A stretch of 64,000 nt of DNA from Picosynechococcus sp. PCC 7003 (GTDB lineage: Bacteria; Cyanobacteriota; Cyanobacteriia; Cyanobacteriales; MRBY01), in contig NZ_CP016474.1 in the NCBI RefSeq assembly GCF_001693255.1, positions 2,498,661 through 2,562,660 on the forward strand, given 5' to 3'. This document shows, in pieces, positions 12,258 to 62,739 of the stretch (positions are counted from its first letter, which is position 1; every line of letters begins with the position of its first letter). Under the pieces are notes generated by a model. The model was given only the letters and a program-made list of their open reading frames with translations. It did no database searches and had not been told where the DNA came from. Made by a program: the position numbers and the translations under genes.

Positions 12258-12362
12258 TCTTGTGAGGGATTTTTAAACTCAATTTTCCAAAAAGGCGATC
12301 GCCAACCGAGCGAGGGAATACGCTACGATCACAAACGATGTAAAGTTAGCGGCAAACCAGGC

Positions 12363-13571
12363 GTGCAGTACAGTTGGCAGAAATTTGGACTTTTGAGTGG
12401 GTTATTGGTTCTCTTGGGGAGCTGTGCCCAATTGGGCAATTTGGAAGAAAGCTTGGCCCCTGATCCGCGCCTTGTAGAACAGCAGGAACAAGCCGCTGAA
12501 ACCGACCCCCCCGCAGATTCCTCCTTACCGACCGATTTTCCAGCAGAAATTCCCCTCTACCCTGAAGCAACCCTCATTCAAGCAGAAGACAAGACTACCG
12601 TCTGGGCGATCGCCGATAATGTCCAGAGCCTCGAAGCCTTTTACCGGAAAGCTTTTAGTGAAGCCCCCTGGGAAATTGTCGAGTCCCCTGCTGCCGCACC
12701 GGATAATCTCTTAGAAATTGTGGCTCGCACCAGCGACCTGGAAGTGACCCTGTCCCTGTCTGAAGCCGCTTCTCCCACGACCAATGACTCCGACCAAGCT
12801 GTTGCGGGCACCACCTTCGCCCTGAGCTATCGCGCCCTAAGTACCACCGGAACTGACGATACCGCCCCCACTGATACTTCAAATTTGCCTGCGGATACTG
12901 ACCTTGCGGCCCAGGTACAGGATCTCATTGCCCTCAAGGTTTTTACCGCTACTGATTTTCAGGCCGATACGGTGATTACGAGGCGTCAATTTGCCCGCTG
13001 GCTCTTCAAGGCCCACAACGCCATCTATGGCGATCGCCAAAACCAACAAATTCGCCGCGCCAATAGCAACAGTAAACCGATCTTCACCGATGTGCCGGCC
13101 AGTGACCCCGACTTTCCTTTTATCCAAGGCTTGGCCGAAGCGGGGATTATTCCTTCGACCCTCACCAACGACACCCTTACAACGTTTCGCCCCGATGCCC
13201 CCCTCACCCGGGAAAGCTTGATCGCCTGGAAGGTGCCCCTCGACCGTCGCCAGGCTCTGCCCCAAACCAGCCTCGATAATATCGCCGAAACCTGGGGCTT
13301 TCAGGATGCCCCCAAAATTGACACCAGAGCGCTCCAAGCCCTCTACGTGGACTTTCAGAACGGTGACCAAGCGAATGTGCGGCGGGTATTTGGCTATACC
13401 ACCCTCTTTCAGCCCCAGAAAACGGTTACCCAACAGGAAGCGGCGATCGCCCTATGGTATTTCGGTTACCAAGGGGACGGTCTATCTGCTGCCACCGCCC
13501 GTGGCGATCGCCAAGCCCCGAACCAAACTGCTGATACGGAGACTAATGCCCCAGCCTCCCAAGACCCCTAA
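12363..13571 (+). CDS. SLH-domain lipoprotein
   Basis: A 402-residue predicted lipoprotein starting with GTG. The N-terminus has a signal peptide ending in the lipobox LLGSC (Cys about residue 21), followed by a low-complexity acidic/proline linker. A middle domain of about 100 residues (PLYPEATLIQ...TTFALSYRAL) is of unknown type. From about residue 190 there is an S-layer-homology region: ITRRQFARWLFKAHNAIY, IFTDVPASDPDFPFIQGLAEAGII, FRPDAPLTRESLIAWKV. SLH modules bind envelope polysaccharide or peptidoglycan; cyanobacterial members often tether the outer membrane. It lies 105 bp after the flotillin gene and converges on ho1. Confidence 0.82.
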   Translation: MQYSWQKFGLLSGLLVLLGSCAQLGNLEESLAPDPRLVEQQEQAAETDPPADSSLPTDFPAEIPLYPEATLIQAEDKTTVWAIADNVQSLEAFYRKAFSEAPWEIVESPAAAPDNLLEIVARTSDLEVTLSLSEAASPTTNDSDQAVAGTTFALSYRALSTTGTDDTAPTDTSNLPADTDLAAQVQDLIALKVFTATDFQADTVITRRQFARWLFKAHNAIYGDRQNQQIRRANSNSKPIFTDVPASDPDFPFIQGLAEAGIIPSTLTNDTLTTFRPDAPLTRESLIAWKVPLDRRQALPQTSLDNIAETWGFQDAPKIDTRALQALYVDFQNGDQANVRRVFGYTTLFQPQKTVTQQEAAIALWYFGYQGDGLSAATARGDRQAPNQTADTETNAPASQDP

Positions 13572-13638
13572 CCAAAAAAAATTCCCCAATCACAACCGCG
13601 ACTGAGGAACCCATTGTTTGAGGTTTAGACGAAACTTG

Positions 13639-14361
13639 TTAGTTGCTCGCCGGAGACAGATCAGCGTCGGTACTGCCCTTAGTGCGGCGACGGGTCAAGG
13701 TATTGAAAAGCATCACACCGATGGCCTTAACGAGGTTTCCTTCCAGCTCTTTGAACATATTCATATTCATGCCAAAGGCATCATTGGCTTCCTGAACAAT
13801 CTGTTCTGCTGTTTCTTCCGGCACATCCAAGCTGTTCATCGCGGCCCGGTACTTATCCTTAAAAGCCTTCTCGTCGGAGATATGCTCAAACTCATAGAAA
13901 GCAGTTCCTTCGCCGTCGAGGTTCATCGCATTTTGGGCAATTTTTTTGAGGATTTGCCCGCCAGAAAGATCGCCCAGGTAGCGGGTATAGGAGTGGCTGA
14001 CTAATAGTTCCGGCGCAGTCTGGGCCACTTCATGGATGCGATCCACATAAGCCTGACCAGCGGGGGTGATTTTCGCTTCGGCTTGCCAGTTGGAGCCAAA
14101 ATAATAGCGCAGATCCGTTTCGAGACTTTGTTTACGGTTTAACTCAGGGAAATAAATTTGGGAGACGACGGGATGATCCTTGAGGCGCTCCATCTCCTCT
14201 TCCATCGCCGAGTAAACATAATAAAGGTCTGCCACAAGCTTCCGGTAGGATTTTTTCTCCACGACTCCCTTCAGGAAGCATTTCACGAAGCCAACGTTTT
14301 CCGCCATCGTGTGGGAAGTTTTCGTTCCCTCTCTTAACATTGTTGCTAGGTTAGCGACCAT
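13639..14361 (-). CDS. ho1: Heme oxygenase (biliverdin-forming)
   Basis: Opens heme to biliverdin IX-alpha with ferredoxin electrons, the entry step for phycobilin and phytochrome chromophores; it releases CO and iron. The 240 residues show the proximal-histidine helix GTKTSHTMAENVGFVK (His near residue 17), the YYVYSAMEEEM region and the distal helix motif YLGDLSGGQILKK. Length matches the cyanobacterial HO-1 type. An AT-rich leader of several hundred bases with GTTAAC-like elements lies upstream (14362 onwards). Biliverdin reductase genes are not in the window. Confidence 0.95.
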   Translation of the reverse strand: MVANLATMLREGTKTSHTMAENVGFVKCFLKGVVEKKSYRKLVADLYYVYSAMEEEMERLKDHPVVSQIYFPELNRKQSLETDLRYYFGSNWQAEAKITPAGQAYVDRIHEVAQTAPELLVSHSYTRYLGDLSGGQILKKIAQNAMNLDGEGTAFYEFEHISDEKAFKDKYRAAMNSLDVPEETAEQIVQEANDAFGMNMNMFKELEGNLVKAIGVMLFNTLTRRRTKGSTDADLSPASN

Positions 14362-14782
14362 AGAAATAAGTCCCTTGTTCTTACTGAAAATGAATAGATA
14401 TTAAAAGGTTTGTTAAAGAAAGTTAACAAAATTAAAAGACTGCTCAGTTTCGTAGGTTAACTGGTTTTATGGGTTTATGCTATTAAGTTTTTTTACGGAG
14501 AAATAGATACATTTTTGTCAAACTTTCGAGGGCATATCGTTGAAATAAGACAGGATTTAGGGGGTTCTGCCCTGGCGATTAGAAGCGATTTTCGTTAGAG
14601 AGATCGAATGTTTATGACCCGGAATAATCTGCTGGGAAATCCATGTGATTTTGGTGCCCTTTCCGGGGCGATCGCCATGGAAGTTAATCCTCGTTACAGT
14701 GATGGGAGAAAGGCAGCGCCCTGAACGAATTACATCATGGAAAAAAAGGGGAGAGATTTTCGCGCTTATTACGTTGCCCTTA
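14362..14782. other. Long non-coding leader upstream of ho1
   Basis: About 420 bases without a credible gene. The half nearest ho1 is AT-rich, with repeats of TTAAC/GTTAAAG (14400-14450) that probably belong to the ho1 promoter. The distal half has mixed composition, one GCGATCGC site, and only short frames lacking codon structure. No RNA gene was recognised. Confidence 0.4.
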
Positions 14783-14907
14783 GAGGTTGTCCGAGAAGTA
14801 TCCAAATGTTGTTAGCCCCTAAATCCCCCATGCTGGGGGACTTCATTTGCTTAATATCTGAGCAGTTCCCCCCAAGTTGGGGGGCGAGGGGCTTTTTAGA
14901 CATCCTC
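14783..14907. mobile_element. 125-bp MITE with TTA target duplication
   Basis: Imperfect terminal inverted repeats (GAGGTTGTCCGAGAAG at the left, reverse complement GAGGATGTCTAAAAAG at the right, 12 of 16 matching) bound a 125-bp segment flanked on each side by TTA (14780-14782 and 14908-14910). Inside are a nested inverted pair AGCCCCT/AGGGGCT and two strong hairpins, TCCCCCATGCTGGGGGA (14824-14840) and CCCCCCAAGTTGGGGGG (14868-14884). There is no coding capacity. A trinucleotide T-N-A duplication fits mobilisation by an IS5-group transposase in trans; the family assignment is inference. Confidence 0.7.
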
Positions 14908-15177
14908 TTAGGTGGGGCATCAGAGGTTCTCATTCCTGACTCATTCCTGAAGGCATTGCCAGTATGGACGAGTCTTTATGGTCACGATTCTGGGACGTTG
15001 TCGAATCTTGAAAAATCTGCGTCAACATTAACAGTGCGCACAATAACTACAGTTCAGCAAGAAATCTAAACTTGCATTATCTCGTATGGCACTCAGCAAC
15101 GCATGACATAGAACATAAAACAATCCCAATGGGAATAACAGTTTTTAACGTCTAGTGGAACTTATAAAAACAGATTA
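14908..15177. other. Intergenic region upstream of the permease
   Basis: About 270 bases, AT-rich and free of HIP1 sites. It presumably contains the permease promoter, with a purine run just before the ATG at 15178. I see no gene, hairpin terminator or repeat here. Confidence 0.4.
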
Positions 15178-16491
15178 ATGGCAAAAGAAAAAATGGGATT
15201 TTGGTCAGTGACCGCTGTCGGAATTGGCGGCATGGTCGGCGGCGGCATTTTTGCAGTATTAGGTTTATCGGTAGAGTTGGCTCAGGGGGGCGCACCCATC
15301 GCATTTGTGGTCGCTGGCTTAATTGCTTTGGTTACAACTTATGCTTACGTACAGCTGTCCCTGGCATTTCCCAGCCGTGGAGGCACAGTCACTTTCTTAA
15401 ATAAAGCCTTTGGTACAGGCTTTTTTACCGGCAGTATAAATCTGTTGCTCTGGTTGAGCTATATCGTGATGTTATCTTTGTATGCCTCTGCATTTGGGAG
15501 TTACGGAGCCGCTTTTTTCCCAGAGTCGGTGCAGTCACTCATGCGCCATATCTTGATTAGTGGATCCATTATCGGCATTACAGGGCTAAATTTGCTTAGC
15601 GCAGACGTGATTGGCAAAGCAGAAAGTTGGATTGTGGCGTTTAAGTTGCTAATTTTGCTGGTTTTTATTGGTATTGGCGTTCAGGGAGTGGACGTAACGC
15701 GTTTAGAACCGCAGAATTGGGCTGATCCTTTGGCGATTGTCTCTGGCGGTATGATCATTTTCCTGGCGTTTGAGGGGTTTGAGTTGATGGCCAATACCGC
15801 TGAAGAAGTACACCATCCAGAGCATGTATTGCCTCGAGCCTATTATTCTGCAGTGGGATTTGTCTTGGTACTGTATCTGCTGATTGCCGGCATCACCGTC
15901 GGCTCGTTATCAACGGATAAAATTATTGAGGCGAAGGAATATGCGTTGGCAGTGGCAGCAAAACCCTTTATGGGTTCTGTGGGGTTTACGATGATTGCGA
16001 TCGCCGCATTATTATCTACAGCTTCGGCATTAAATGCGACTCTTTATGGCACCTCTCGGCTCAGTTACATTATTGCGAAATCTGGAGAATTACCTGCAGC
16101 ATTAGAAAAAAAAATTTGGAATCAGCCAATTGAAGGATTATTGATTACAAGTGGACTGACCTTGGTGATTGCCAATAGCTTTAATCTTTCCGAAATTTCG
16201 ACGATGGGCAGTTCCGGTTTTTTACTGATCTTTGCGGTGGTTAATTTTGCGAATGTACGACTACACCGTCAAACCAAGAGTCATCAATGGATTTCCTTGA
16301 TTGGAACAGTGGCCTGTTTGGGAGCAGTAATTGTACTACTTTCAGAAACAGCTCGAACCCAACCACAGCATCTTTGGGTAGTAGTCGCGATGGTTGGTCT
16401 AGCCTTTGCAATCGAGGGTATTTATCGAGGTCTTAGTCAACGGCAAATCCATCTTTTCCCCTCGGATACTCGTACTGATGACCCATCTTGA
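15178..16491 (+). CDS. APC-superfamily amino-acid permease
   Basis: A 437-residue integral membrane protein with about 12 hydrophobic segments. The first helix carries the APC substrate/sodium-site motif GIGGMVGGGIFAVLG, followed by the AFPSRGGTVTFLNKAFG loop and the helix-6 motif FLAFEGFELMANTAEEV. These identify an amino acid-polyamine-organocation transporter; the substrate cannot be read from sequence. The gene has an AT-leaning codon style and a single GCGATCGC in 1.3 kb, sparser than its neighbours, which hints at horizontal acquisition. It sits alone between a MITE on one side and an inverted-repeat element on the other. Confidence 0.88.
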   Translation: MAKEKMGFWSVTAVGIGGMVGGGIFAVLGLSVELAQGGAPIAFVVAGLIALVTTYAYVQLSLAFPSRGGTVTFLNKAFGTGFFTGSINLLLWLSYIVMLSLYASAFGSYGAAFFPESVQSLMRHILISGSIIGITGLNLLSADVIGKAESWIVAFKLLILLVFIGIGVQGVDVTRLEPQNWADPLAIVSGGMIIFLAFEGFELMANTAEEVHHPEHVLPRAYYSAVGFVLVLYLLIAGITVGSLSTDKIIEAKEYALAVAAKPFMGSVGFTMIAIAALLSTASALNATLYGTSRLSYIIAKSGELPAALEKKIWNQPIEGLLITSGLTLVIANSFNLSEISTMGSSGFLLIFAVVNFANVRLHRQTKSHQWISLIGTVACLGAVIVLLSETARTQPQHLWVVVAMVGLAFAIEGIYRGLSQRQIHLFPSDTRTDDPS

Positions 16492-41044: not shown

Positions 41045-42433
41045 ATGACAGAAGCAAAAAAAACCTGGAGCGATCGCTTTGACACATCGCTGCATCCGGC
41101 GATCGCCGTGTTTAATGCCAGTATCGGCTTTGATATTGAACTGATCGAATATGACATTACGGGTTCAGTAGCCCATGCGAAGATGCTTGCCCATACGGGG
41201 ATTATTTCCCCTGAAGAAGGCGAAACCCTTGTTAAAGGTTTAGAGCAGGTTCGCCAGGAATATCGCGATGGCAATTTTCACCCCGGCGTAGAGGATGAGG
41301 ATGTGCATTTTGCCGTGGAAAAACGCTTGACGGCAATCGTTGGCGATGTAGGCAAAAAACTCCACACGGGGCGATCGCGCAATGACCAAGTCGGCACCGA
41401 TATTCGCCTCTATCTGCGGGATAAAATTCGCGGCATTCAACAACAATTGCGGGAATTTCAACAGGTTTTACTCAACCACGCCGAAAACCATGTGGAAACC
41501 CTGATTCCGGGTTATACCCACCTCCAACGGGCGCAACCGATCAGCCTTGCCCACCATTTAATGGCCTATTTCCAGATGGCCCAACGGGATTACGAACGGC
41601 TGGATGATGTCTACAAACGCGCTAATACATCTCCCCTTGGTTGTGGCGCTTTAGCGGGGACAACGTTTCCCATTGATCGTCATTTCAGTGCGAATTTATT
41701 GGGCTTTGAACGCATTTATCAAAATAGTCTCGATGGGGTCAGCGATCGCGATTTTGCGATCGAGTTTTCCGCTGCGGCCAGTTTGATCATGGTGCATCTG
41801 AGCCGTTTATCGGAGGAAATGATTTTCTGGGCCTCGAAGGAGTTTAGTTTTATTAGCTTAAAAGATAGCTGCGCGACGGGTTCGAGCATTATGCCCCAGA
41901 AGAAAAACCCGGATATTCCCGAATTGGTACGGGGAAAAACGGGCCGGGTATTTGGACATTTGCAGGGACTTTTGGTGCTGATGAAAGGGTTACCATTAGC
42001 CTATAACAAGGATCTTCAGGATGATAAAGAAGGGATTTTTGACACAGTAAAAACGGTGCAGGGTTGTCTGGAAGCCATGACCATTTTGCTCGGTGAGGGG
42101 ATCGAATTCCGTACCCAACGCCTCGCAGAAGCAGTGAACGAAGATTTCTCCAACGCGACCGATGTGGCGGATTATCTGGCGGGTAAGGGAGTACCTTTCC
42201 GGGAAGCTTACAACCTTGTCGGTAAAGTCGTTAAAACCAGCCTTGCGGCGGATAAGTTGCTCAAGGATTTAACCATGGAAGAATGGAAAGAATTACATCC
42301 TGCCTTTGAGGAAGATATCTATCAGGCGATCGCCCCCAAACAGGTAGTTGCAGCACGGAATAGTTATGGTGGCACAGGCTTTGAGCAGGTCAAAAAGGCG
42401 ATCGCCGAGGCAAAAGTCATCCTTGAGAAATAG
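41045..42433 (+). CDS. argH: Argininosuccinate lyase
   Basis: Last step of arginine synthesis: argininosuccinate to arginine and fumarate. The 462 residues carry the fumarase/aspartase-superfamily signature [12 protein letters not shown], the [10 protein letters not shown] region, [12 protein letters not shown]-like [18 protein letters not shown] and the expected C-terminus ending in [21 protein letters not shown]. The gene is intact. Its last 108 bases are the parent-type sequence of the dispersed copies that follow downstream, so its 3' end appears to be a recurrent insertion site. Confidence 0.97.
42326..42433 (+). repeat. argH 3'-end repeat, copy 1 (in the intact gene)
   Basis: From the GCGATCGC at 42326 to the argH stop. 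It encodes [20 protein letters not shown] and the remaining residues to VILEK. All later copies align to this segment in the same orientation. Confidence 0.85.
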
Positions 42434-42458
42434 GCGATTTGGGGCGGTTGTTCAAAAG

Positions 42459-42563
42459 GCGATCGCCTCCAAACAAATTGTTGCAGCTCGCAATAATTAT
42501 GGTGGCACAGGATTTGAACAGGTTCGTCAGACGATCGCTGATGCACTATATTTAATAGACTAA
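42459..42563 (+). repeat. argH 3'-end repeat, copy 2
   Basis: Begins 25 bp after the argH stop, again at a GCGATCGC. Reads AIASKQIVAARNNYGGTGFE, then QVRQTIADALYLID and a stop. Clearly argH-derived but more diverged than copy 3, and in another frame than argH. The 25-bp spacer 42434-42458 is also repeated after copy 3 (20 of 25 identical). Confidence 0.85.
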
Positions 42564-42580
42564 TCTCCCAATTAAAAGGA

Positions 42581-42600
42581 TATCAAGAGGCCATCCCTTG
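42581..42600. terminator. Possible hairpin downstream of the argH repeats
   Basis: TCAAGAGG-CCAT-CCCTTGA forms a short stem (one mismatch) between the second argH copy and the end of the ART-like gene. There is no T-run, so a terminator role is uncertain. Confidence 0.25.
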
Positions 42601-42633
42601 AGTTGGCAACAATAACAGTAATTATTACTATGT

Positions 42634-43023
42634 TCATATAATCAAATAACCTTCCGGGATACAAACATAGCCGACTATTGTAGGCTGTATTTTCTTTTTA
42701 TGCACGTGGATATCCGAAGGATTACAAGTGACATGCTTGAGCTGCTCTTCTGTAAAACAGACAGCAAAAATAACTAGATTCTCATCAACTTCGCAACCCA
42801 AGTGAGCTAAGCAACTAGAGCTGTGTCTGGCATAAGAAACTGATTCAAGGACGCCGACACCTAGCTGTTTGGCCGACTGAAATCCAGACTTAATGATTTT
42901 GTTAAAGTTTATAGCTTGAGTTACGTGGAAGAAAATCTTAGGGTCATGTTCAAGGTCTGAGCTAAAAACACAATAATGGTTTTCTTCAGTAGGTTTGATT
43001 AAATCAAATTGTTGTGGTTGCAT
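42634..43023 (-). CDS. Uncharacterised cassette protein, possible ADP-ribosyltransferase fold
   Basis: A 129-residue protein I do not recognise firmly. The segment IFFHVTQAINFNKIIKSGFQ resembles the H-x-T...I...G start of KptA/DarT-type ADP-ribosyl/phosphotransferase folds, and YARHSSSCLAHLG could be the next strand; this is a weak, pattern-based guess. It lies in the first cassette after argH, on the opposite strand to argH, and its start overlaps the 3' end of the decayed PIN frame by 20 bp. No HIP1 sites in this ~1-kb cassette except near its edges. Confidence 0.4.
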   Translation of the reverse strand: MQPQQFDLIKPTEENHYCVFSSDLEHDPKIFFHVTQAINFNKIIKSGFQSAKQLGVGVLESVSYARHSSSCLAHLGCEVDENLVIFAVCFTEEQLKHVTCNPSDIHVHKKKIQPTIVGYVCIPEGYLII

Positions 43024-43234
43024 ACATAGCCTCCTTTATGTAACTTTTGATTATTTGGAACGTGTCCATTGAAAAACACTTTATGATACTTTTATTTAAT
43101 AAAATTTTGTTGGAAGAGTTTGTCGAAAACCTTGATCTGGTGATCGCCTGAAACAGCAGTTCTGCATCCTGGAAAAATGGCTCTCGTTGCAATAAAAAAT
43201 CTAAGATAATGTTGGTATCAACTAAGATTTTCAC
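43004..43234 (-). pseudogene. Truncated VapC-like PIN-domain toxin
   Basis: Only the first ~31 residues (MKILVDTNIILDFLLQREPF and FQDAELLFQAI) look like a PIN domain, with the first catalytic Asp in VDTN. The remainder of the 76-residue frame (RSRFSTNSSNKILLNKSIIK...) has no PIN features and lacks the later acidic residues, so the toxin is broken by deletion or rearrangement. The start overlaps the antitoxin stop by 4 bp, the usual toxin-antitoxin arrangement. Confidence 0.6.
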
Positions 43235-43461
43235 TGAAGATATTTCTCCGCCCGTCTTTCTTCCAGCATCACTGCCACTTCTTCATCTGTTGGTGCAGGC
43301 TGTTCCGTTTTTAACAATCCCCTCATCCGCCGAATTGCACTAGAGCGGTCTGCTTGAGCAGCCGTCGTATCTTGTAAGGACTCAACGATAGCGGCGATTA
43401 GCGCGAGGCGATCGCTAGGTGGCAACTTGAAGATTTGCGCTTTTAGTTCTTGTGAAACCAT
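43231..43461 (-). CDS. VapB-like antitoxin of the decayed PIN toxin
   Basis: A 76-residue protein: an N-terminal helical segment (LKAQIFKLPPSDRLALIAAIVESL) resembling the addiction-module antitoxin family seen with cyanobacterial PIN toxins, and a charged C-terminus (EEVAVMLEERRAEKYLQ) that would wrap the toxin. It overlaps the PIN remnant by 4 bp. With the toxin broken it is probably a relic. Confidence 0.6.
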   Translation of the reverse strand: MVSQELKAQIFKLPPSDRLALIAAIVESLQDTTAAQADRSSAIRRMRGLLKTEQPAPTDEEVAVMLEERRAEKYLQ

Positions 43462-43582
43462 AGATTACTCCCAGGTTCAACGGGATTTACCATTCAGTAT
43501 GAGTGATCCTAGATAACGTTTATGAATTAATTTACTTCAGGTTACGACTCCTATTTGGTGCTTTGTCGCAAATCTCGATCCG

Positions 43583-43690
43583 GCGATCGCCCCCAAACAG
43601 GTGGTTGCGGCGCGGAATAGTTATGGTGGCACAGGCTTTGAGCAAGTGAGATTGGCGATCGCCGAGGCAAAAGTCATCCTTGAAAAATAG
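43583..43690 (+). repeat. argH 3'-end repeat, copy 3
   Basis: 108 bp, same length and same stop as copy 1, about 92% identical to it. Reads [20 protein letters not shown] then [15 protein letters not shown]. The differences from resident argH (GTGGTT, GAGCAAGTGAGATTGG) are shared with copy 5. Confidence 0.85.
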
Positions 43691-43715
43691 GCAATTTGGG
43701 GCGGTCGTCAAAAAA

Positions 43716-43826
43716 GCGATCGCCCCTCAGCAAGTCGTCGCAGCCCAGAATAGCTATGGTGATACAGGTTTTAAAAAAGGGAAAAAGGCGATCGCTGAAG
43801 CCCAAAATCTTTTAGCCAATCCCTAG
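43716..43826 (+). repeat. argH 3'-end repeat, copy 4
   Basis: Follows copy 3 after a 25-bp spacer like that between copies 1 and 2. Reads AIAPQQVVAAQNSYGDTGF then KKGKKAIAEAQNLLANP and a stop. The most diverged long copy, but still an argH C-terminus in one open frame with its spacer (FGAVVKKAIA). Confidence 0.82.
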
Positions 43827-44191
43827 GATTGCGATGGAGGGGGTATCACAACGGTACTCCCTAGTTGAGTGATGCATGGTGACGATCGTTTTTATCTAAC
43901 TAGCAGTTATACGGACAGCGTTCATCTAAAATGCCTCATGATACTTTTATTCAGAATGATTCCGTATAAACAAATAGGGATGTTATGTAGACTGCATCCG
44001 TACAATATGGTTATTCAAGTATTATATGAATTCAATTACCATCATGGTACTACCACCCCTATGTAAGCTGTTGGATGCTGTTTGTAAGGTAATTCGCCTT
44101 AATCACCAATATTAAAGAAATTCGTCTGAGTATACTGGCCAAGCATGCTAGGTTAGAAAAAATACAATTCCGCCTGTGCTGACCCCGCGAC
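43827..44191. other. Intergenic part of the second cassette
   Basis: About 365 AT-rich bases between argH copy 4 and the DUF1852-like gene. The first part holds the R2 repeat (43841-43887). TGATACTTTTATT at 43939 also occurs at 43083 in the first cassette. No credible gene; the promoter of the DUF1852-like gene is presumably near 44100-44180. Confidence 0.35.
43841..43887 (+). repeat. R2 repeat, copy A
   Basis: 47 bp from GGGTATC to GACGATC, 36 of 47 bases identical to copy B at 46294-46340, same orientation. GGGGGTA ... TACTCCC can form a hairpin. It follows argH copy 4 by 14 bp, so it may be sequence that lay downstream of argH in a donor genome. Confidence 0.55.
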
Positions 44192-44543
44192 ATGAAGGCA
44201 TCTAAAGACATCTCATTCACGGTAAAAACCACGGAGTACGATACTAGCTATTTGATAGGGAAAAATACCCGTGCTTCAACGAACTTTGCTAACTTTGCTC
44301 GTGATCCTGACCATAACAAGCAGCGCATCAGCACATTTCTTGAACTTGTAAACAGAGATCTTAATCGTATCCTTGCCAGTAGTATTACTCATCGACGATA
44401 TGAGATTCGGCTGGAGATTTTGAGCATATACGGCCATATAACCGAGGAGTTTAGCAGCAGTGATATTCTTTTAACCGAGGTGATGCGAGCTAGCGTCCTC
44501 GATCAGCACAATGATTGTCTGTACCCAGGTCCAACAGGACTTA

Positions 44544-45443
44544 TAGTTAATTCGAATAAGTTCTAGAGGATTAAGGGTCATCGCAATAATCTCTAATAAG
44601 CTGGTCAAGACTGGTTCCCTCCGGCAAATATTCCCTTCTCTTCTTGAGAGCAGCAAAATCATGTTCTATTTTGTTGAAATCTGGGGAGTACTTTGGCAGA
44701 AACTTGACGATGTGACCCTTCTGGTCGGCGAGTTCCCTTATCCTGCTTTTGCGGTGAATTGGAGCATTATCCATGACTAATATTGAGTTCTCCTTCAGCT
44801 GCGGCATCAACCAATGGGATAACCATGTCTCAAAACAGATGGCATTCACGCTTCCTGTGACCAACATCGGGGCAATCATCTTGCCCTCTTGTCGAGCGGC
44901 CAACAGATTCTCTCGCTTTTCGCGTTTTCCTGTCCTCTCTCCAAATAATTTCTGACCTCTGGGTGCCCATCCATGTCTTCGATGCACGCGGTTATCGAAA
45001 CCTGATTCATCGATAAAGGCTAATTTCTCTGCTCCTACCCTTTGGAGTAACTCTCGTAGTTCTCTGAGATATTGTTGCCGTTCTCGATGGTTACGCTCTC
45101 GATATTTTTGCTGTTTTTTTTCTCGTTATCTTCATCTGTTTGAGGGCATAATGCATTGAACTTGTGGTCACCCCAAAGTGCTTGGCTCTATCGAGCAGTC
45201 TTGCTTCTGGATACTGCCTGACATGCTCGGCGACTGCTTGCCAGTCGAGCTTACGACGACGACGATTCACTACTGTTGGTTTCAGGTCGGGACGCTTGAG
45301 CCAACTATAGACTGTCGCTTCTGAAACTTCATAGCGTCTTGCAGCCTCTGCTTTGCTGCCGCCAGAGCGGACAAAGTTCACCACTCTTGTTCTGAGGTCT
45401 AAGCTATACATCTTTTTCCTCCATTCTTTATTCGAATTTACTA
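44544..45443 (-). mobile_element. IS630-family insertion sequence, 900 bp
   Basis: Terminal inverted repeats TAGTTAATTCGAATAAG (left) and TAGTAAATTCGAATAAA (right end, reverse complement) match at 15 of 17 positions. TA duplications flank it at 44542-44543 and 45444-45445, as expected for the IS630/Tc1 superfamily. It carries one transposase gene in two frames and sits within the DUF1852-like gene. Near-exact ends and clean target duplication suggest a fairly recent insertion. Confidence 0.9.
44571..45411 (-). CDS. IS630-family transposase, two frames
   Basis: The first frame (45411-45091, 106 residues) is the DNA-binding part: MYSLDLRTRVVNFVRSGGSK, AARRYEVSEATVYSWLKRP and an HTH_Tnp-like second helix. 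The second frame, open from about 45110 to 44571, encodes the DDE domain: LAFIDESGFD (first Asp), VMDNAPIHR (second Asp) and FNKIEHDFAALKK (Glu). The frames meet at a run of eight A on the coding strand (around 45115), so either programmed frameshifting or an indel joins them; a +1 (or -2) shift is needed here. Transposase function is therefore possible but not certain. Confidence 0.85.
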
Positions 45444-46080
45444 TAACTTCTCTTCCTATCTGCGTGACTATGACTTTCGAGTCGTGCTCCCAAGTTTGGT
45501 GCGTACAAAGGCCCCATCTCAGGAATGGGCATCGTTTGGCAGGCTACATGGCTTGCTCACTCGCCTTCAGTTTGGGGCTGATGGCGTAATAAAAACTCCC
45601 CTCGCAGTCTGCATCAGCATAGCCCAGAATCATGCTTATGTTGCTACGCAGTACCAGCACTCAATTCTTGGCAGAGAGTACAAAACGGAATCTTCCAGCC
45701 TCACCGATCGATACTTTGCACAAATGGGATTGCAAGCGCAGTTTTTTATGCCTCAAGGATTGCCAGCGCCGCTTGCATTTTACAGCTCGAGGGCACTCCA
45801 AGAGGAGACAGATATTTACATAGCATCACTAATTGCTGTGATGGTAAACTTTCAGCGAATTTATCGGCCAGAGATTTATCTAAGTCGCAGGGGCTTTAGT
45901 CCCATTCCTGGTGAGGTGTCAAGGGCATCCCTGAGTAATCAGGATTTTGAGAAACCGGCTCTGGTATACGATCGCCTAGAGAGAGAACAGTTGGCGGATC
46001 AGCAAGCACATTTGATCGAAGATTGTTTAATGATGCGTCATGGTGATTGGCTGAAAAAGATTTCTAGCGCAACGATTGAT

Positions 46081-46151
46081 CCCCAAACAGGTGGTTGCAG
46101 CCCGAAATAGTTACGGTAGCACAGGCTTTGAGCAAGTGAGATTGGCGATCG
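46081..46151 (+). repeat. argH 3'-end repeat, copy 5
   Basis: 71 bp from CCCCAAACAG to GGCGATCG, about 93% identical to copy 3 and sharing its diagnostic AGCAAGTGAGATTGG, truncated at both ends relative to copy 1. It forms the 3' end of the broken DUF1852-like gene. Confidence 0.85.
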
Positions 46152-56496: not shown

Positions 56497-57099
56497 TTAT
56501 TCCTGCTCCGGCAAGAGTTCGAGCTGTTGGGGCGGCGGCTGAATTTTAAAACTTTGGCGGTGGTGGGGCGTCAGTCCGTATTGCCAGATGGCTTGGCGAT
56601 GTTTTTGGGTGCCATAGCCTTTGTTATTGGCCAAATCATATTCAGGGTAATGATCTGCCAGTTGGATAACGTCTTGATCCCGCTGCACTTTGGCGAGGAT
56701 ACTGGCGGCGGCGATCGCCTTTACTTTGCTGTCCCCTTGAATAATCGCCTGTTGGGGGTAAGGCAGGCGGGGAATGGTTTGGCGGCCATCGACAAAAATT
56801 TCCGTGGGTTTAATTTGTAATTTTTCCACAGCACGGGTCATGGCAAGAAACGTTGCCTGCAAAATATTAAGCTGGTCAATTTCGGCCACCGATGCCGAGG
56901 CGATCGCCCAGTCCGTTACGAGGGCTTGAATTTGGGGTACAAGGCTTTCCCGCCGTTTGGCCGACAGCTTTTTACTATCCGTGACGCCAAGCTCCTCCAG
57001 GGCTTTTTCCTGGGTTGCATTGACCACCACTGCTGCCGCCACCACCGGCCCAAACAAACAGCCCCGGCCTACCTCATCAACGCCAGCAAGTAAGACCAT
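56497..57099 (-). CDS. rnhB: Ribonuclease HII
   Basis: Removes ribonucleotides from DNA and RNA of RNA-DNA hybrids. The 200 residues contain the DE-D-D active site: AGVDEVGRGCLFGPVVAAAV (Asp, Glu), TDSKKLSAKRRE, FVDGRQTIP and GDSKVKAIAAASILAKVQRD. Length is normal for type 2 RNase H. Its ATG follows the TPR gene's stop by 3 bp, so translation is likely coupled. Confidence 0.96.
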   Translation of the reverse strand: MVLLAGVDEVGRGCLFGPVVAAAVVVNATQEKALEELGVTDSKKLSAKRRESLVPQIQALVTDWAIASASVAEIDQLNILQATFLAMTRAVEKLQIKPTEIFVDGRQTIPRLPYPQQAIIQGDSKVKAIAAASILAKVQRDQDVIQLADHYPEYDLANNKGYGTQKHRQAIWQYGLTPHHRQSFKIQPPPQQLELLPEQE

Positions 57100-57102
57100 C
57101 GT

Positions 57103-57981
57103 CTACGGTTGGTTGGGTTGCACGAGCTGTTGGAGGTTTCCCCAAGGGACTAAGGATCGCAGTGGTGCGAAATAGTCAGCCGTTTCCGCTTGAGGAAAGT
57201 AGGTCAGCGGGTCGAGGGCGATCGCCTTTTCTAAACTCTCAAAAGCCTTTTGGTAATTCCCCACCTGGGCCAAACAGCGGGCTTGGGCATACCAAGCTTC
57301 GGCATCTTCTGGGGCATCAATCAGGGCTTTAGTAAAGGCGGCGATCGCCTCTGGGTAATCCCCTAAACTTTCGAGGGTATTTCCCCGTTGGTACCAGGCC
57401 CAAAAATCCTGGGGTTTTGCCTTGAGCGCTTGGTCGTAGCTCGTCAGGGCGGTTTCTGGTTTTCCCCAGGCCAGGAGGGCATCTCCCCGACGGTACCAAC
57501 ACCAATAATCTCCAGGGCGAAATTCTAGGGCGCGGTCGTAGGTAGCCACGGCGCGATCATGGCGGCCCAGGAGTCGCCAACATTCCCCTTGGCGGTAAAT
57601 GGCCCAATAGTCGTTGGGTTGGGCGGCGAGGGCTTTTTCAAAGCAGGCGATCGCCTGGGTATAAACGTGGAGAGCTTCCATATAGAGACAGCCCTGGTCA
57701 TACCAAGACCAATAATTTTCTGGGCCAATGGCACAGGCCCGTTGGTAGGCGGCGATCGCCTCATCCACATGGCCTAATTTTTCGTGGGCCATTGCCAGGT
57801 GATACCAGGCCCAATAGTCGGTGGGATAATATTCGAGGGCGCGGTGATAGCACAGCAATGCTTCGTCAACATCACCTTCGAGCCAGCGGAGTTGTCCCTG
57901 CTGATACCAACCTCTGTAACTGTCGGGACGGCATTCTAGGGGGCGATAGATTGTGCGAGCCACGGTGAGTAAGTCTTCCAT
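57103..57981 (-). CDS. TPR-repeat protein
   Basis: About 292 residues from the ATG at 57981 (a TTG lies three codons further upstream at 57990). It consists almost entirely of seven or so tetratricopeptide repeats with an unusual shared motif DYW.WY at the start of each repeat (DYWAWYHLAMAHEKLGHVDE, NYWSWYDQGCLYMEA, DYWAIYRQGECWRLLGRHDR, DYWCWYRRGDALLAWGKPET, DFWAWYQRGNTLESLGDYPE). A protein-protein scaffold; partner unknown. First gene of the TPR-rnhB-scpB cluster. Confidence 0.88.
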   Translation of the reverse strand: MEDLLTVARTIYRPLECRPDSYRGWYQQGQLRWLEGDVDEALLCYHRALEYYPTDYWAWYHLAMAHEKLGHVDEAIAAYQRACAIGPENYWSWYDQGCLYMEALHVYTQAIACFEKALAAQPNDYWAIYRQGECWRLLGRHDRAVATYDRALEFRPGDYWCWYRRGDALLAWGKPETALTSYDQALKAKPQDFWAWYQRGNTLESLGDYPEAIAAFTKALIDAPEDAEAWYAQARCLAQVGNYQKAFESLEKAIALDPLTYFPQAETADYFAPLRSLVPWGNLQQLVQPNQP

Positions 57982-58160
57982 CCCAAGCAATAATCTTGCG
58001 TTTTTTGGCAGATCAATAATTTTTCTATATCTAAGATAACGGATTTGTTAAGGTAATCTAAAGTCTGGTTTTGACCTGCTTTGGGCGATTTTGCCCCGTT
58101 GAATGGGCCATTGGGACGGATTATTCACGCGGACGTTTTGTAACAAATTTTACGATTTTT

Positions 58161-59375
58161 ATGCTGCCCACGGATTTGTTAGTGCACCGTCGCCAGGGGG
58201 AGAGTCTCATCCCGAAATATTTAGCCCCCAATAAACAGGCGATCGCCTTAGCCGAAACCTTAATTGACTGCTTTCAACGGTGTCAGGGGGAACAGAAAAA
58301 AGTCCTCCAGGCGGAACTCCAGGAAATCGAAGGAGATAGCACCGATTTTAAAGTGCAGCGGGGTTTAGCCCACCTGTTGAAAAATCATTTCAGCACCTTT
58401 GAAATTGTCAGTCCCCTCGAACCCCAGATGTTGCGGGAAAAGGTGTTTGCCCAGGCCGCTGCAACGATGCCAATTCCCGAACAACAATTCAAAATCCTGG
58501 AGGCGATCGCCACAGAACTCAGTCAAGCCACAGACCAATCCGTCACCCCTACTGCCGTTGCCACTGGCCTCTATGCTGATTTGCCCGAAAATCACATTCT
58601 CACGGAGTTTACGCCCCCCACCCCAGAAACCCTCATCGATCGCTACAACCTCTCCCAAGTCCAGGGCATTTTCTACAAGGCGAGCCAGTTGATTATCCAC
58701 GCCCACCGTAACGACCCAGGGGAATATAAACTGCTGTTTCGCTACCTCAAGCTCTTTCAACTCATGACCTACATCGAAGGGGATGCGGACACAGGCTTTA
58801 CGATCACTATCGACGGCCCCACCAGTTTATTTAAAGCCAGTACCCGCTATGGCTTGGCGATCGCCAAGATGATTCCAGCCCTGCTCCATGTGAGCAAATG
58901 GCAACTAGAAGCCCACCTGCAATACAAAGACACCTATAGCAACACCATTCGCCAGGGACAATTTAGCCTTGATCACAGTTGTAATCTCGTCAGCCATTAT
59001 CCCTCCGGTAAACCCTACGACAGTATGCTCGAAGCCTCTTTCGTGAAAGGCTGGCAAAAGCTCAAAACCGATTGGCAACTTGAGCGGGAAGTGGATCTGA
59101 TTCCGTTGCCAGGGAGTGTGATGATTCCCGATTTTCGCCTGGTACATCCCGATGGCCAGGAATACCTTTTAGAAATTGTCGGTTATTGGCGACCGGAATA
59201 TTTGCAGAAAAAATTTTCTCAGATTCGTCGCGCTGAACAACCGAATTTAATCATTGCTATTTCAAAGCGTCTTAACCTCCAAAAAGCTGGTGTAAAATTC
59301 GACGATTTACCGAACCCAATTATTTGGTTTAAGAACAAATTGCCGGCTAAAAATGTTTTGCAAATTGTGGAATAA
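58161..59375 (+). CDS. DUF790 (Bax1-like) nuclease family protein
   Basis: About 404 residues from the ATG at 58161 (MLPTDLLVHRRQGESLIPKY); the frame also has upstream codons back to 58071 that lack family features. DUF790 proteins are the archaeal Bax1-type nucleases that act with XPB helicase; the C-terminal PD-(D/E)XK-like part is visible here: SMLEASFVKGW, EREVDLIPLPGSVMIPDFRL and LLEIVGYWRPEYLQKK. The partner helicase gene is not within 2 kb. The last 33 bases (encoding AKNVLQIVE and the stop) recur at 60072-60104. Confidence 0.85.
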   Translation: MLPTDLLVHRRQGESLIPKYLAPNKQAIALAETLIDCFQRCQGEQKKVLQAELQEIEGDSTDFKVQRGLAHLLKNHFSTFEIVSPLEPQMLREKVFAQAAATMPIPEQQFKILEAIATELSQATDQSVTPTAVATGLYADLPENHILTEFTPPTPETLIDRYNLSQVQGIFYKASQLIIHAHRNDPGEYKLLFRYLKLFQLMTYIEGDADTGFTITIDGPTSLFKASTRYGLAIAKMIPALLHVSKWQLEAHLQYKDTYSNTIRQGQFSLDHSCNLVSHYPSGKPYDSMLEASFVKGWQKLKTDWQLEREVDLIPLPGSVMIPDFRLVHPDGQEYLLEIVGYWRPEYLQKKFSQIRRAEQPNLIIAISKRLNLQKAGVKFDDLPNPIIWFKNKLPAKNVLQIVE

Positions 59376-59530
59376 GTTCCGATATTGCTAACACCATAAT
59401 GATGTCTAATTTTTTTACTCGACGAGCCTATTGATAAACCATGGGGACATGTGCGATTACCAATCACACAGTTTTGGAAGCTATATTAGAAACATTGCAA
59501 TCCATGTCACAGAAATCAGCAACATCATAA

Positions 59531-60055
59531 ATGAGTTATTTAATTATTGGTGCAAGCCTTAATCCAGAAAGCCGCAGCCAAATTCTTGCAGAACAAGCAC
59601 AATTGCTGTTGCAAAACCAAGGAAAATCGGCAAAATGGCTAGATCTTAGAAAGCTTGATTTACCTTTTTGTGCCGGGAAAAGCACCTATGATCATCCCAG
59701 CCTACCACCGTTGAATGAAATTGTTGCCGAAGCTGATGGCATTCTCGTCGCCACCCCTATTTACAATTACGATGTGAATGCTGCACTCAAAAACTTTTTG
59801 GAACTCACGGGTCAGTCTTGGCAAGAAAAAACAGTGGGTTTTCTCTGTGCGGCGGGGGGCAGATCTAGTTATATGTCTGTGATGTCCTTTGCCAATAATC
59901 TAATGTTCGATTTCCGCTGTTTAATCATCCCACGTTTTGTCTATGCGACGCGGGAAGCTTTTGCTGAAGGAAAAATTGTGGATGAAACAATCGAAACTCG
60001 GTTAGCAGAATTAGTGAATGAGTTGGTGCGAATCACAGAGGCTTTAAATGGCTAA
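59531..60055 (+). CDS. NADPH-dependent FMN reductase family protein
   Basis: A 174-residue flavodoxin-fold reductase: IIGASLNPESRSQILAEQAQ (phosphate-binding loop), ADGILVATPIYNYDVNAALK and FLCAAGGRSSYMSVMSFANN are the typical FMN-contacting segments of the SsuE/ChrR-like group. Substrate could be FMN, quinones or metals. It sits between the DUF790 stop and a second copy of the DUF790 3' end, as a single-gene insertion. Confidence 0.85.
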   Translation: MSYLIIGASLNPESRSQILAEQAQLLLQNQGKSAKWLDLRKLDLPFCAGKSTYDHPSLPPLNEIVAEADGILVATPIYNYDVNAALKNFLELTGQSWQEKTVGFLCAAGGRSSYMSVMSFANNLMFDFRCLIIPRFVYATREAFAEGKIVDETIETRLAELVNELVRITEALNG

Positions 60056-60071
60056 TAAACATAGTCCCTAA

Positions 60072-60104
60072 GCCAAAGATGTTTTACGAATTGTGGAGTA
60101 GGTT
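60072..60104 (+). repeat. Repeat of the DUF790 gene's 3' end
   Basis: 33 bp, 27 of 33 identical to 59346-59378, same orientation. Its frame reads AKDVLRIVE and TAG where the intact gene reads AKNVLQIVE and TAA. Weaker similarity extends about 15 bp upstream (codons resembling NKLP). Confidence 0.7.
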
Positions 60105-60138
60105 AGAATCCAACTAGATCTAGTCAGGTAAATCAGTA

Positions 60139-60444
60139 ATGTCTCAAGCTACAACACCCCAGCATTCAGTTGATGAACCGTTAAAAGATCTTCAGACCTG
60201 GAAACTCGAAGATGCTAAAGCCCGGTTTAGTGAAGTCGTGCGTCTGGCCCAAAAGACTCACCCCCAAATGGTGACGGTACGAGGCAAAGAAGCTGTGGTG
60301 GTTATGTCTGCTGAGCAATATGCAAAACTCTTACCGCTTCTAGAACAACCCAATCTCCACGAGCTTCTGGCGCAATCGCCCTTAAGCCACCTGGATTTTG
60401 AGCCGTCAAGCACCCGTAGCCCCGTAAGAGAAGTGGAACTATGA
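60139..60444 (+). CDS. Phd/YefM-family antitoxin
   Basis: A 101-residue antitoxin: WKLEDAKARFSEVVRLAQKT and MVTVRGKEAVVVMSAEQYAK form the Phd/YefM N-terminal DNA-binding domain, followed by an acidic tail that would occupy the toxin. It ends with ATGA overlap into the PIN toxin gene. Expected to repress its own promoter, which lies just after the DUF790-tail repeat. Confidence 0.92.
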   Translation: MSQATTPQHSVDEPLKDLQTWKLEDAKARFSEVVRLAQKTHPQMVTVRGKEAVVVMSAEQYAKLLPLLEQPNLHELLAQSPLSHLDFEPSSTRSPVREVEL

Positions 60445-60887
60445 AAGGCTGGCTTCTAGATACCAACGTTATCTCAGAACTCCGGCAGCCCAATTGTCAC
60501 CCTGCTGTGAAAGCATGGAGCGATCGCCAATCACCCCAGTCTTTTTATCTGAGCACTGTTACCATCGCAGAAATTCGCTTTGGCATTGAGCGAGTGCAGG
60601 ATGAGATGTTTCGCCAAGAGTTGATTGCGTGGCTGAATGGTACGCTCCGTCCCTGGTTTAGTGATCGACTGCTAGGGGTAGATGAAGATGTTATTTTGCG
60701 TTGGCGTTGGCTGGTCGAGAAAGGACGGCAAGAACATTACACTTTTAGCCAACCGGATTTATTCATTGCGGCGATCGCCTCCCTCCATAATCTTTGTGTC
60801 GTCACGCGCAATGTGGGGGATTTTGCAAAAGCAGATGTGCCAGTCTTTAATCCGTTTGTGAGTCTACAAACAGAGCATGAACCTTAA
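60441..60887 (+). CDS. PIN-domain toxin, VapC/FitB type
   Basis: A 148-residue ribonuclease toxin with all PIN acidic residues in place: [14 protein letters not shown] (Asp), [14 protein letters not shown] (Glu), and the C-terminal [20 protein letters not shown] with TRNVGDF. The pairing with a Phd-type antitoxin is the common FitB-like arrangement. Intact, unlike the PIN relic at 43004. Its stop overlaps the convergent asnS stop by 4 bp. Confidence 0.92.
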
Positions 60888-62266
60888 AATTCAGCATTTA
60901 AAGGGGTACGGGGGAAGGGAATCACATCGCGGATATTGCCCATGCCCGTCATAAACTGCACCAACCGCTCAAAGCCGAGACCAAAGCCCGCATGGGGAAC
61001 AGTGCCAAACCGCCGTAGATCGAGGTACCACCACAGATCTGCTGCTTCGATGTTCATTTCCTGAATGCGCCCTTCCAGCACATCGAGCCGCTCTTCCCGC
61101 TGGGAACCGCCAATAATTTCGCCAATCTTCGGTGCGAGCACATCCATCGCCGCTACAGTTTTCTGATCATCATTGAGGCGCATATAAAAAGCCTTGATAT
61201 CTTTTGGATAGTTGCTCACGATTAAAGGCTTTTTAAATAGGTCTTCGGCGAGATACCGTTCGTGTTCGGACTGGAGATCGATGCCCCATTCCACCGGAAA
61301 TTCAAAGGTTTTATTGCTTTTTTCTAAAAGGGCGATCGCCTCGGTGTAGGTAATCCGGGCAAACTCATTCTCGATAATATTTTGGGCCGTAGCGAGGACA
61401 GAATTATCAATGCGCTTGTTGAAAAATTCCATGTCTTCAGGACAAGCTTCTAATACATACTTGAAGATGTAGCGCAGAAATTCCTCGGCTAAATCCTGGT
61501 CGCCGATAATGTCGCAAAAGGCCATCTCCGGTTCCACCATCCAAAACTCCGCCAAGTGCCTGGAAGTGTTGGAGTTTTCCGCCCGGAAAGTTGGCCCGAA
61601 GGTGTAGACATCTTTGAAAGCCATCGCCATCACTTCCGCTTCTAACTGACCGCTCACCGTCAGATAGGCAGGCCGCCCAAAAAAGTCTTCAGCATAGTCA
61701 ACGGCTCCATCTTTTGTTCGCTTTGGGTTGGCCAGATCAAAATTGGTGACCGCAAACATTTCCCCCGCCCCTTCGCAATCGCTGGCGGTAATAATCGGTG
61801 TGTGGGCCCAGATAAAGCCCCGCTCCTGAAAGAATTGATGGATTGCGGTGGCACAGGCATTCCGCACTCGCATCACTGCCCCCATGGTATTAGTCTTACC
61901 CCGCAGGTGGCCAATGGTGCGCAAAAATTCAAAGCTGTGGCGTTTTTTCTGGAGGGGATAGGTTTCGGGATCTGCTTCCCCGTGGACAGTCACCTCTTTT
62001 GCCTGGAGTTCGATACGTTGCCCTTTGCCTGGGGATTCCACGACTAAGCCTGTCGCTGTAACCGCAGCCCCCGTATTGAGCTTTTTAATGATGGCTTCGT
62101 AATCGGCCAGGGTACCATCGATAATCACCTGGAGGCCGTTCATCGTCGAGCCGTCGCTAATTTCAATGAAAGAAAACCCCTTCAGTTCCCGTTTGGTTTT
62201 TACCCATCCCTCGGCGGTGATGGTGCTGTTGATGGCGGCGGTGTTGAGGATTTCCTTAATGCGCAT
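60884..62266 (-). CDS. asnS: Asparaginyl-tRNA synthetase
   Basis: A 460-residue class IIb synthetase from the ATG at 62266 (the frame reaches a TTG at 62305). The OB-fold anticodon-binding domain occupies the first ~115 residues ([20 protein letters not shown]). The catalytic domain shows motif 2 [20 protein letters not shown] and motif 3 [20 protein letters not shown], with the asparagine-type sequence rather than aspartyl. Complete. Confidence 0.95.
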
Positions 62267-62337
62267 GGTCGTTGATCTAGTCTGAGGTAGAGGAACTGAA
62301 AACAAGTGCGCCCTTTATCTTATCGAGTTTGAGGGGT

Positions 62338-62739
62338 TCAGGGCAGAAATGGGGAGGGTTTCGTCAAATCCATGGTGCGGCAGGTGCATTGGCCAAACCA
62401 ACGGTAACGGTTGGTCGCCACCAGCCGATAGAGCCAATCCCGGAAATTTTGCGGCAAAGGGCGAGCCAAGGTGAGCAGTTGCCATGGGCCACCCAGCCTT
62501 TGACAGATAGCCAAGCAAGCATTGGATGCATAGTAAGTATTTTCCCCATCAAAGTAGGCGATCGCCCAGTCTTCTGGATCTTCGGGGAGGGGTGGTAAAT
62601 ATTGTTGGGCTGTTTTCCCTTGGAGGGGCGCTAGATAAAATCTCTGGTCTGGGTCGATTTTGAGCATCAAATCAACAAAACCATTGCAAAGATTACACTC
62701 CCCATCAAAGAAAATAATCGGCTTTGAATGATCAAACAT
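62338..62739 (-). CDS. DCC-family thiol-disulfide oxidoreductase-like protein (DUF393)
   Basis: About 133 residues from the ATG at 62739, which overlaps the metH stop by 8 bp; the frame itself extends further into metH. The family signature [14 protein letters not shown] (DCC, CxxC) is at residues 11-24, and the rest ([28 protein letters not shown]) fits DUF393. Probably a thioredoxin-fold redox protein. Translational coupling with metH is likely. Confidence 0.85.

Follow-up and report, generated by a model that had tools for sequence, protein, structure and literature searches.

The end of a DUF790 gene is met a second time behind a lone FMN-reductase gene, and the question that this locus raises is what the second gene end is and how it came to lie there. 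The window, that is, the whole stretch of 64,000 nucleotides that was analysed (G000:C1:2498661-2562660, G000 being the window genome), contains the following features at this spot:

58071..59375, + strand: DUF790 gene, intact, the putative anchor (PF05626, E 8.9e-154)
59346..59375, + strand: intact DUF790 3' end, first copy (AKNVLQIVE-stop)
59531..60055, + strand: FMN-reductase gene, the putative gained gene (PF03358, E 2.6e-26), found here in 2/6 genus genomes
60056..60071, + strand: 3' flank of the FMN-reductase gene and joint, the flank being common with PCC 7117 up to 60069
60072..60098, + strand: relic, read as the final 27 sense bases from a different DUF790 allele (AKDVLRIVE), 22/27 identical to the intact copy
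60099..60131, + strand: conserved operator-like region upstream of the toxin-antitoxin module, its first TAG serving as the stop of the relic
60139..60444, + strand: phd-type antitoxin gene (PF02604, E 9.8e-13)
60441..60887, + strand: vapC/PIN toxin gene (PF01850, E 1.2e-08)
60884..62305, - strand: asnS-like tRNA synthetase gene (PF00152), right flank common with PCC 7117

A direct-repeat search returned exactly the pair that an earlier note on this DNA had described: 59346-59378 and 60072-60104 are 82% identical (27/33), lie in the same orientation at a spacing of 726 bp, and have the FMN-reductase gene as the sole gene between them. The 33 bp had been taken for the last 33 bp of the DUF790 gene and are in fact its last 30 bp plus 3 bp past the stop. 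The extent of the second copy has to be reduced as well. It is in frame, as described, and terminated by a stop, with unrelated sequence before it; its stop and the bases that follow (TAGGTTAGAATCC...) belong to a 33-nt region that is conserved upstream of the phd/vapC pair, so that the DUF790 homology proper is 27 nt long. This upstream region is matched at 30/33 positions by a copy of the module found elsewhere in the PCC 7117 chromosome (1.858 Mb) and at 27-28/33 in plasmid2 of NIES-970 and in plasmids of Synechocystis PCC 6803, 6714 and 7338. The relic is thus fused directly to the module, which suggests that the module once stood directly behind DUF790. The copy elsewhere in the PCC 7117 chromosome (L176, G002:C1:1855500-1860500) is a second, broken one of the Phd/VapC module, which lies beside a gene that is kinase/WD40-like by eye; its upstream region abuts a HIP1.

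Tail copies were scored from the stop (match +1, mismatch -1.5), which gives 14.5 for the DUF790 pair; a score of at least 14 was reached by one of 10,771 permuted gene/downstream pairings and by none of 1097 opposite-strand comparisons. By eye, the joint at the relic has neither a clear microhomology nor a HIP1. No inverted repeat of at least 14 nt was found in 59340-60140, and both an Rfam scan (57000-62500) and a tRNA scan (whole window) were empty, hence no tRNA-type attachment site.

Six genomes of the genus were compared: the window genome, NIES-970 (G001), PCC 7117 (G002), G003, G004 and G005. The FMN-reductase gene occupies the DUF790 spot in two of them, the window genome and PCC 7117, and is therefore not universally conserved there. 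Among 60 genomes, FMN-reductase matches above 40% identity were found only in G000, G002 (94%), G044 (75%) and G010 (68%), the homologues of G044 and G010 not being adjacent to DUF790. The PCC 7117 sequence aligns with the window without gaps over 58000-60069 (90.4%), diverges at the start of the relic and aligns again from 60855. Its spacer between the FMN-reductase gene and asnS holds a vapC remnant, whose score was equalled by 0/300 shuffles and 0/400 random genomic segments, the remnant including a HIP1 for which the segments were unmatched; the module therefore probably lay downstream of the FMN gene in both lineages. No DUF790 relic was found in this downstream stretch of PCC 7117, the best match being 17/27. 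The four genomes without the FMN gene here (G001, G003, G004 and G005) each have other genes downstream, a different small gene behind DUF790 in NIES-970 and other neighbours in G003-G005, both as seen by eye, so that there is no clean empty site among them. As the earlier note had expected of such strains, none of the four yielded a second DUF790 tail, the search in G003 covering 655 downstream bases.

The comparison was extended to 80 DUF790 loci of named cyanobacteria, 75 of them, PCC 7117 included, with at least 600 downstream bases. A stop-anchored copy of the DUF790 tail was found in none of these 75 other loci (best score 9, against 14.5 in the window), and only PCC 7117 has an FMN gene near DUF790. 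This argues that the DUF790 end is no standing insertion site and does not bear out its description as a cassette or attachment site. The end of argH differs in this respect, with relics in three of the six genus genomes.

We consider it likely that the second tail is a scar, the older end of DUF790 having been stranded when a new end and the FMN reductase entered. In the earlier state, DUF790 would have stood directly before the Phd/VapC module, in a predicted allele of the order DUF790-Phd/VapC-asnS, with no FMN gene and with a DUF790 end like GCCAAAGATGTTTTACGAATTGTGGAG; DUF790 directly before Phd/VapC was found in none of the six genus genomes. The incoming DNA of a relative would have carried its own DUF790 end followed by the FMN-reductase gene. 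On the left side, homologous exchange may have taken place inside DUF790, and on the right side a short-homology (illegitimate) joint may have been made 27 bases before the resident DUF790 end. DUF790 would thereby have acquired a new end and a new neighbour, and the last 27 bases of the resident would have been left ahead of the toxin-antitoxin module. Such a topology is expected where a homologous exchange is combined with a short-homology joint that falls within the end of the resident gene. The locus is consistent with a homologous anchor in DUF790, but the identity profile against PCC 7117 and NIES-970 shows no breakpoint. The joint may have been formed by homology-facilitated illegitimate recombination (HFIR) on one of several chromosome copies, or by a single crossover with a fragment that had become circular; in a polyploid cell, the joining of two chromosome copies could have had the same effect. 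Since PCC 7117 has the FMN gene without a second tail, the FMN reductase and the new tail may or may not have arrived in one event. Natural transformation would be a possible route. PCC 7002 presumably belongs to the same genus. It is described as naturally transformable in the available text of PMC5101192.

The same haplotypes would result if donor and recipient were swapped, that is, if a DUF790-FMN-asnS resident had received tail-Phd-VapC DNA from a DUF790-Phd/VapC strain and the relic had entered with the toxin-antitoxin module. That the module occurs at other sites (the broken chromosomal copy in PCC 7117, the plasmids of NIES-970 and Synechocystis) and that PCC 7117 has the FMN gene and no relic are in favour of this order of events. 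We nevertheless regard it as unlikely, since the vapC remnant of PCC 7117 indicates that the module was probably present here before the two strains separated, and none of the other module copies examined was found to carry a DUF790 piece. The tails themselves do not decide which DUF790 allele was resident, as far as comparison with relatives can tell: out of 27 positions, the intact tail and the relic match PCC 7117 at 23 and 18, NIES-970 at 17 and 17, G003 at 13 and 15, G004 at 13 and 15, and G005 at 13 and 14, respectively. Whichever side was the donor at this spot, the best reading of the second tail is that an older DUF790 allele left its end behind here.

Stranded gene ends were also looked for across the genome, in a sample of 60 stretches of 20 kb plus the window (1.264 Mb, 41% of the chromosome). 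The 1097 ORFs that reached 90 aa and had enough sequence downstream were all tested for copies lying 30-5000 nt downstream with a score of at least 12. Stop-anchored copies of the tail were found for eight ORFs, against 0.41 expected from permuted pairings (4/10,771), and for none of the 1097 in the opposite-strand control. Three of the eight belong to an array of paralogues (L236), which the expectation of 0.41 includes; the others are argH, DUF790, map (L219), a subtilase gene (L213) and hoxW/hypA (L197), the last being really a duplicated head of hypA. The tails of hflX (L213) and of an SBP_bac_3 gene (L239) surfaced in unanchored lists. In the upstream control, 6/1008 stop-anchored copies scored at least 12, four in L236, one in the argH array and one, unexplained, in L231. 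In the L236 array itself (11428-16125), the gene copies stand in tandem and have diverged, with long stretches that are 79-97% alike.

When the anchor at the stop was released, scores of at least 15 were obtained for 17/1097 tails, 52/4280 internal segments and 8/1070 heads, and the comparison of tails with internal segments that the earlier note had proposed gives no clear excess. Internal matches include coding repeats and paralogues, and for this reason the stop-anchored test and a filtered list of repeats were used. From the latter, 9 pairs that were too long, 15 within one ORF, 13 between homologous ORFs and 7 intergenic ones were dropped before counting; at a threshold of 18, below which the map case falls, 12 of the 19 kept pairs are terminal, against 2.04 expected. 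By our count these 19 pairs represent 16 loci, 10 of them terminal. We make no claim of a scar for L198 (a tandem repeat), L251 (a dispersed intergenic repeat), L216 (flanking a transposase-like gene) or L233. Short intergenic repeats with CCTCCCTCAAGGG or CTTCCCTGGGGAAGG occur near gene ends at L238 13075-14031, L251 18044-18292 and L225 14475-14652, and are perhaps members of a dispersed repeat family.

Gene heads gave 13/3256 start queries with a score of at least 12 in the window genome, against 5 on the opposite strand and 2/3184 in permuted pairings; besides hypA, these matches come from L236, HIP1-bearing sequences and an ABC-type paralogue. In NIES-970, heads show no excess (6/2041, against 5 on the opposite strand), and an 800-kb sample yielded 4/686 tails, against 0/3360 permuted. 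Two of these four were dismissed, one being a pair of tandem paralogues, ferredoxin-like by eye, and the other the ORF antisense to it, and two plausible ones remain. These possible relics lie behind a Uma2-like gene (L302 15923-16543) and a PAP2-like gene (L319 16198-16998), the names being given by eye.

Neither of the two outcomes that the earlier note had named as speaking against its proposal, a lack of any genome-wide excess of tail repeats and a universally conserved FMN reductase at this spot, was found, three of the eight tail cases being the paralogue array. The proposal of a general route of gene gain at the 3' ends of coding sequences holds in so far as tails are repeated beyond chance; its cassette site and its confinement to 3' ends are not upheld, hypA, among the clearest cases, being a gene head. 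In part, then, the wider claim stands: gains of genes in this lineage are marked by gene ends, heads as well as tails, and no cassette machinery is visible.

Five other loci were compared with their orthologues, and four of them, hypA, map, hflX and SBP_bac_3, show a relic that adjoins the native flank and an insert that adjoins the complete gene. At hypA, the order in PCC 7117 is hoxW-hypA with one head, and in NIES-970 it is hoxW-HIP1-Uma2-like-hypA. In the window genome, hoxW is followed by a 45-nt copy of the start of hypA (44/45), which ends exactly at GGCGATCGCCT, then by a Uma2 gene (PF05685) and a complete hypA; this locus looks like a recombinant of two still-existing states, one donor-like and one recipient-like, joined at HIP1. 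At map, PCC 7117 has the gene, a terminator-like sequence and the next gene, and in NIES-970 and G004 map has a similar small gene (by eye) behind it; in the window genome, map is followed by a gene of 113 aa and by a map tail joined at GGGCGATC / ACCCC to a flank of the PCC 7117 type, the joint containing GCGATC, part of HIP1. All five relatives match the map relic better than the intact tail, and as they include NIES-970 and G004, which carry the gained gene, the map tail points to no donor like these two. A second map-like gene, 66% identical, lies on a plasmid of NIES-970 (G001:C3:13154-13912).

The hflX gene ends in QMLKQL, QMLKHL or QMLQHL in the five relatives, with the same next gene. 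In the window genome it ends in QMLVL and is followed by three other genes, including one for a Band_7 protein, and by a relic with QMLKHL joined to the native flank; this relic, too, is closer than the intact tail to the relatives in 5/5. As the relics of hflX and map fit the relatives better than the intact tails do, two alleles are indicated. The native order at the SBP_bac_3 locus is kept in 4/5 relatives, and an insert is present in PCC 7117 and in the window genome, whose relic adjoins the native flank; the tails differ by 1 nt in their fit to four relatives, and for PCC 7117 the intact tail is the better match (48 against 46 of 58). At the subtilase locus (L213), a ParE/ParD pair lies between the copies. 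The relic is closer to NIES-970 (31/33, against 29/33 for the intact tail), but NIES-970 shares the flank of the intact tail and not that of the relic, and the direction is therefore unclear. In PCC 7117, only the native tail was matched at this locus (L274), which ends behind an IS-like insertion; by eye, a ParE/ParD-type module beside the subtilase gene is interrupted there by an apparent IS transposase gene.

These loci may be described by a common topology: a complete gene with the incoming end, the gained gene or genes, the old gene end and the native flank. The same combination of one homologous and one illegitimate exchange that is proposed for DUF790 could have made these comparable scars elsewhere in the genus, several of them with joints at HIP1.

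Integrative elements restore the 3' end of their target gene, and a small element of this kind, with its own recombinase or one acting in trans and using gene ends as att sites, would restore the gene end and leave attL and attR behind. The topology is identical, with the gene end present twice and the complete gene kept, and the argH relics of three genomes start at one position. We think site-specific insertion quite improbable all the same. A Pfam scan of the FMN reductase, phd, vapC and eight genes of other inserts (the argH array genes and a 70-aa ORF lying outside the scan) revealed no integrase family, a recombinase in trans being possible; there is no fixed core, the relics varying in length (27 to about 126 nt) and in sequence; the DUF790 end is not reused at the 75 other loci; and the two hflX copies end differently, QMLVL versus QMLKHL. 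Target-site duplication by a now-decayed transposon is very unlikely: the insert is bounded by short direct repeats, and an IS-like insertion interrupts the PCC 7117 toxin-antitoxin module at the L213 locus (by eye), but neither inverted repeats of at least 14 nt nor a transposase were found between the copies, those of hflX and map differ as alleles do, and the usual IS target duplications are short, unlike duplications of at least 27 nt at gene ends. That a tandem DUF790 duplicate decayed to its last 27 bases is the least credible of all, since, even with both copies in frame and stop-terminated, no other direct repeat of DUF790 sequence was found near the relic, and what lies between the copies at four comparable loci is other genes and not decayed duplicates.

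The DUF790 locus had been regarded as a single-cassette version of the argH array, a likeness that the comparison does not support: argH relics begin at one HIP1 position and the DUF790 relic does not. Relics of the argH tail (window 42334-46151; L253, L255) number four in the window genome, three in NIES-970 and one in G003, not all of them independent, as two of the four in the window lie in a repeated 255-nt unit. By eye, their upstream similarity is lost at the position of one argH HIP1, and 5/8 keep the full GCGATCGC; for one copy, BLAST extends the alignment about 30 nt further upstream. Taking all loci together, the joints of hypA, subtilase and argH are at HIP1 (GCGATCGC) and that of map is at part of it, and those of DUF790, SBP_bac_3 and hflX are not (by eye). 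A HIP1 core lies within 5 nt of 3.4% of gene-end positions, so that 3/7 loci at HIP1, as assigned by eye, corresponds to P 1.3e-3, an excess noticed after looking and hence exploratory. To our knowledge, the over-abundance of HIP1 in cyanobacteria has no settled function. It may be, though we think this rather unlikely, that HIP1 is a preferred joint for gene addition near gene ends, that argH-like, HIP1-bearing ends are recurrent landing sites and that stranded ends are a readable record of this process in the genus; DUF790 would then belong to the same class of scar, with no HIP1.

The closest named pattern is insertion with long target duplication, known from Helicobacter pylori (Nobusato et al. 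2000, as referred to in the available parts of PMC1643837, PMC3031569, PMC3154945 and PMC4978471), and an insert flanked by direct copies of host sequence is what was found here, with 27-nt copies at 59346 and 60072. As far as those parts go, the two cases share genes that are absent from a sister strain and lie between direct copies of a host segment, with selfish gene pairs as cargo, and the host in the reported case is naturally competent. They differ in that the cargo there consists of restriction-modification genes and here of FMN reductase, ParE/ParD, Uma2 and others, and in that the copies here lie at the ends of genes and some loci have copies that differ in the manner of alleles. HFIR, in the portions available of PMC3240628 and PMC2884548, adds foreign DNA beside a shared gene by one homologous exchange and one illegitimate joint, which is the likeness to the exchange proposed here. 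According to the same portions of PMC3240628, it generally deletes recipient DNA and uses 3-10 bp of microhomology in most cases, and partial duplications of 109-950 bp in E. coli were ascribed to a single crossover of circularised plasmids. The scars described here, in contrast, duplicate a gene end instead of deleting recipient DNA, and the DUF790 joint has no clear microhomology by eye; at hypA, HIP1 is shared by both sides, and GCGATC is seen at map. Because its end is duplicated and not deleted, the DUF790 locus was not filed as classical HFIR, and its kind is best read as insertion with target duplication / homology-facilitated illegitimate recombination. For plasmids of PCC 7002, the accessible text of PMC4390886 and PMC9239245 cites a part played by HIP1 in recombination (Akiyama et al. 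1998); judged from that text, the cyanobacterial group is the same and the hypA and argH joints are likewise at GCGATCGC, but plasmids are concerned there and chromosomal gene gain here, and the DUF790 joint is not at HIP1. In the titles and abstract openings of the literature on HFIR and cyanobacteria that our searches returned, no such case was found, and absence from print is not claimed beyond these searches.

Taken alone, the DUF790 spot is a modest case, a single scar with a DUF790 gene on one side and a toxin-antitoxin pair on the other. Stranded gene ends, however, are a cheap mark of gene gain, which shows the native flank and needs no mobile-element genes. If the link to HIP1 holds, it would give a testable role to a hugely over-represented motif and a rule for where these cyanobacteria accept genes.
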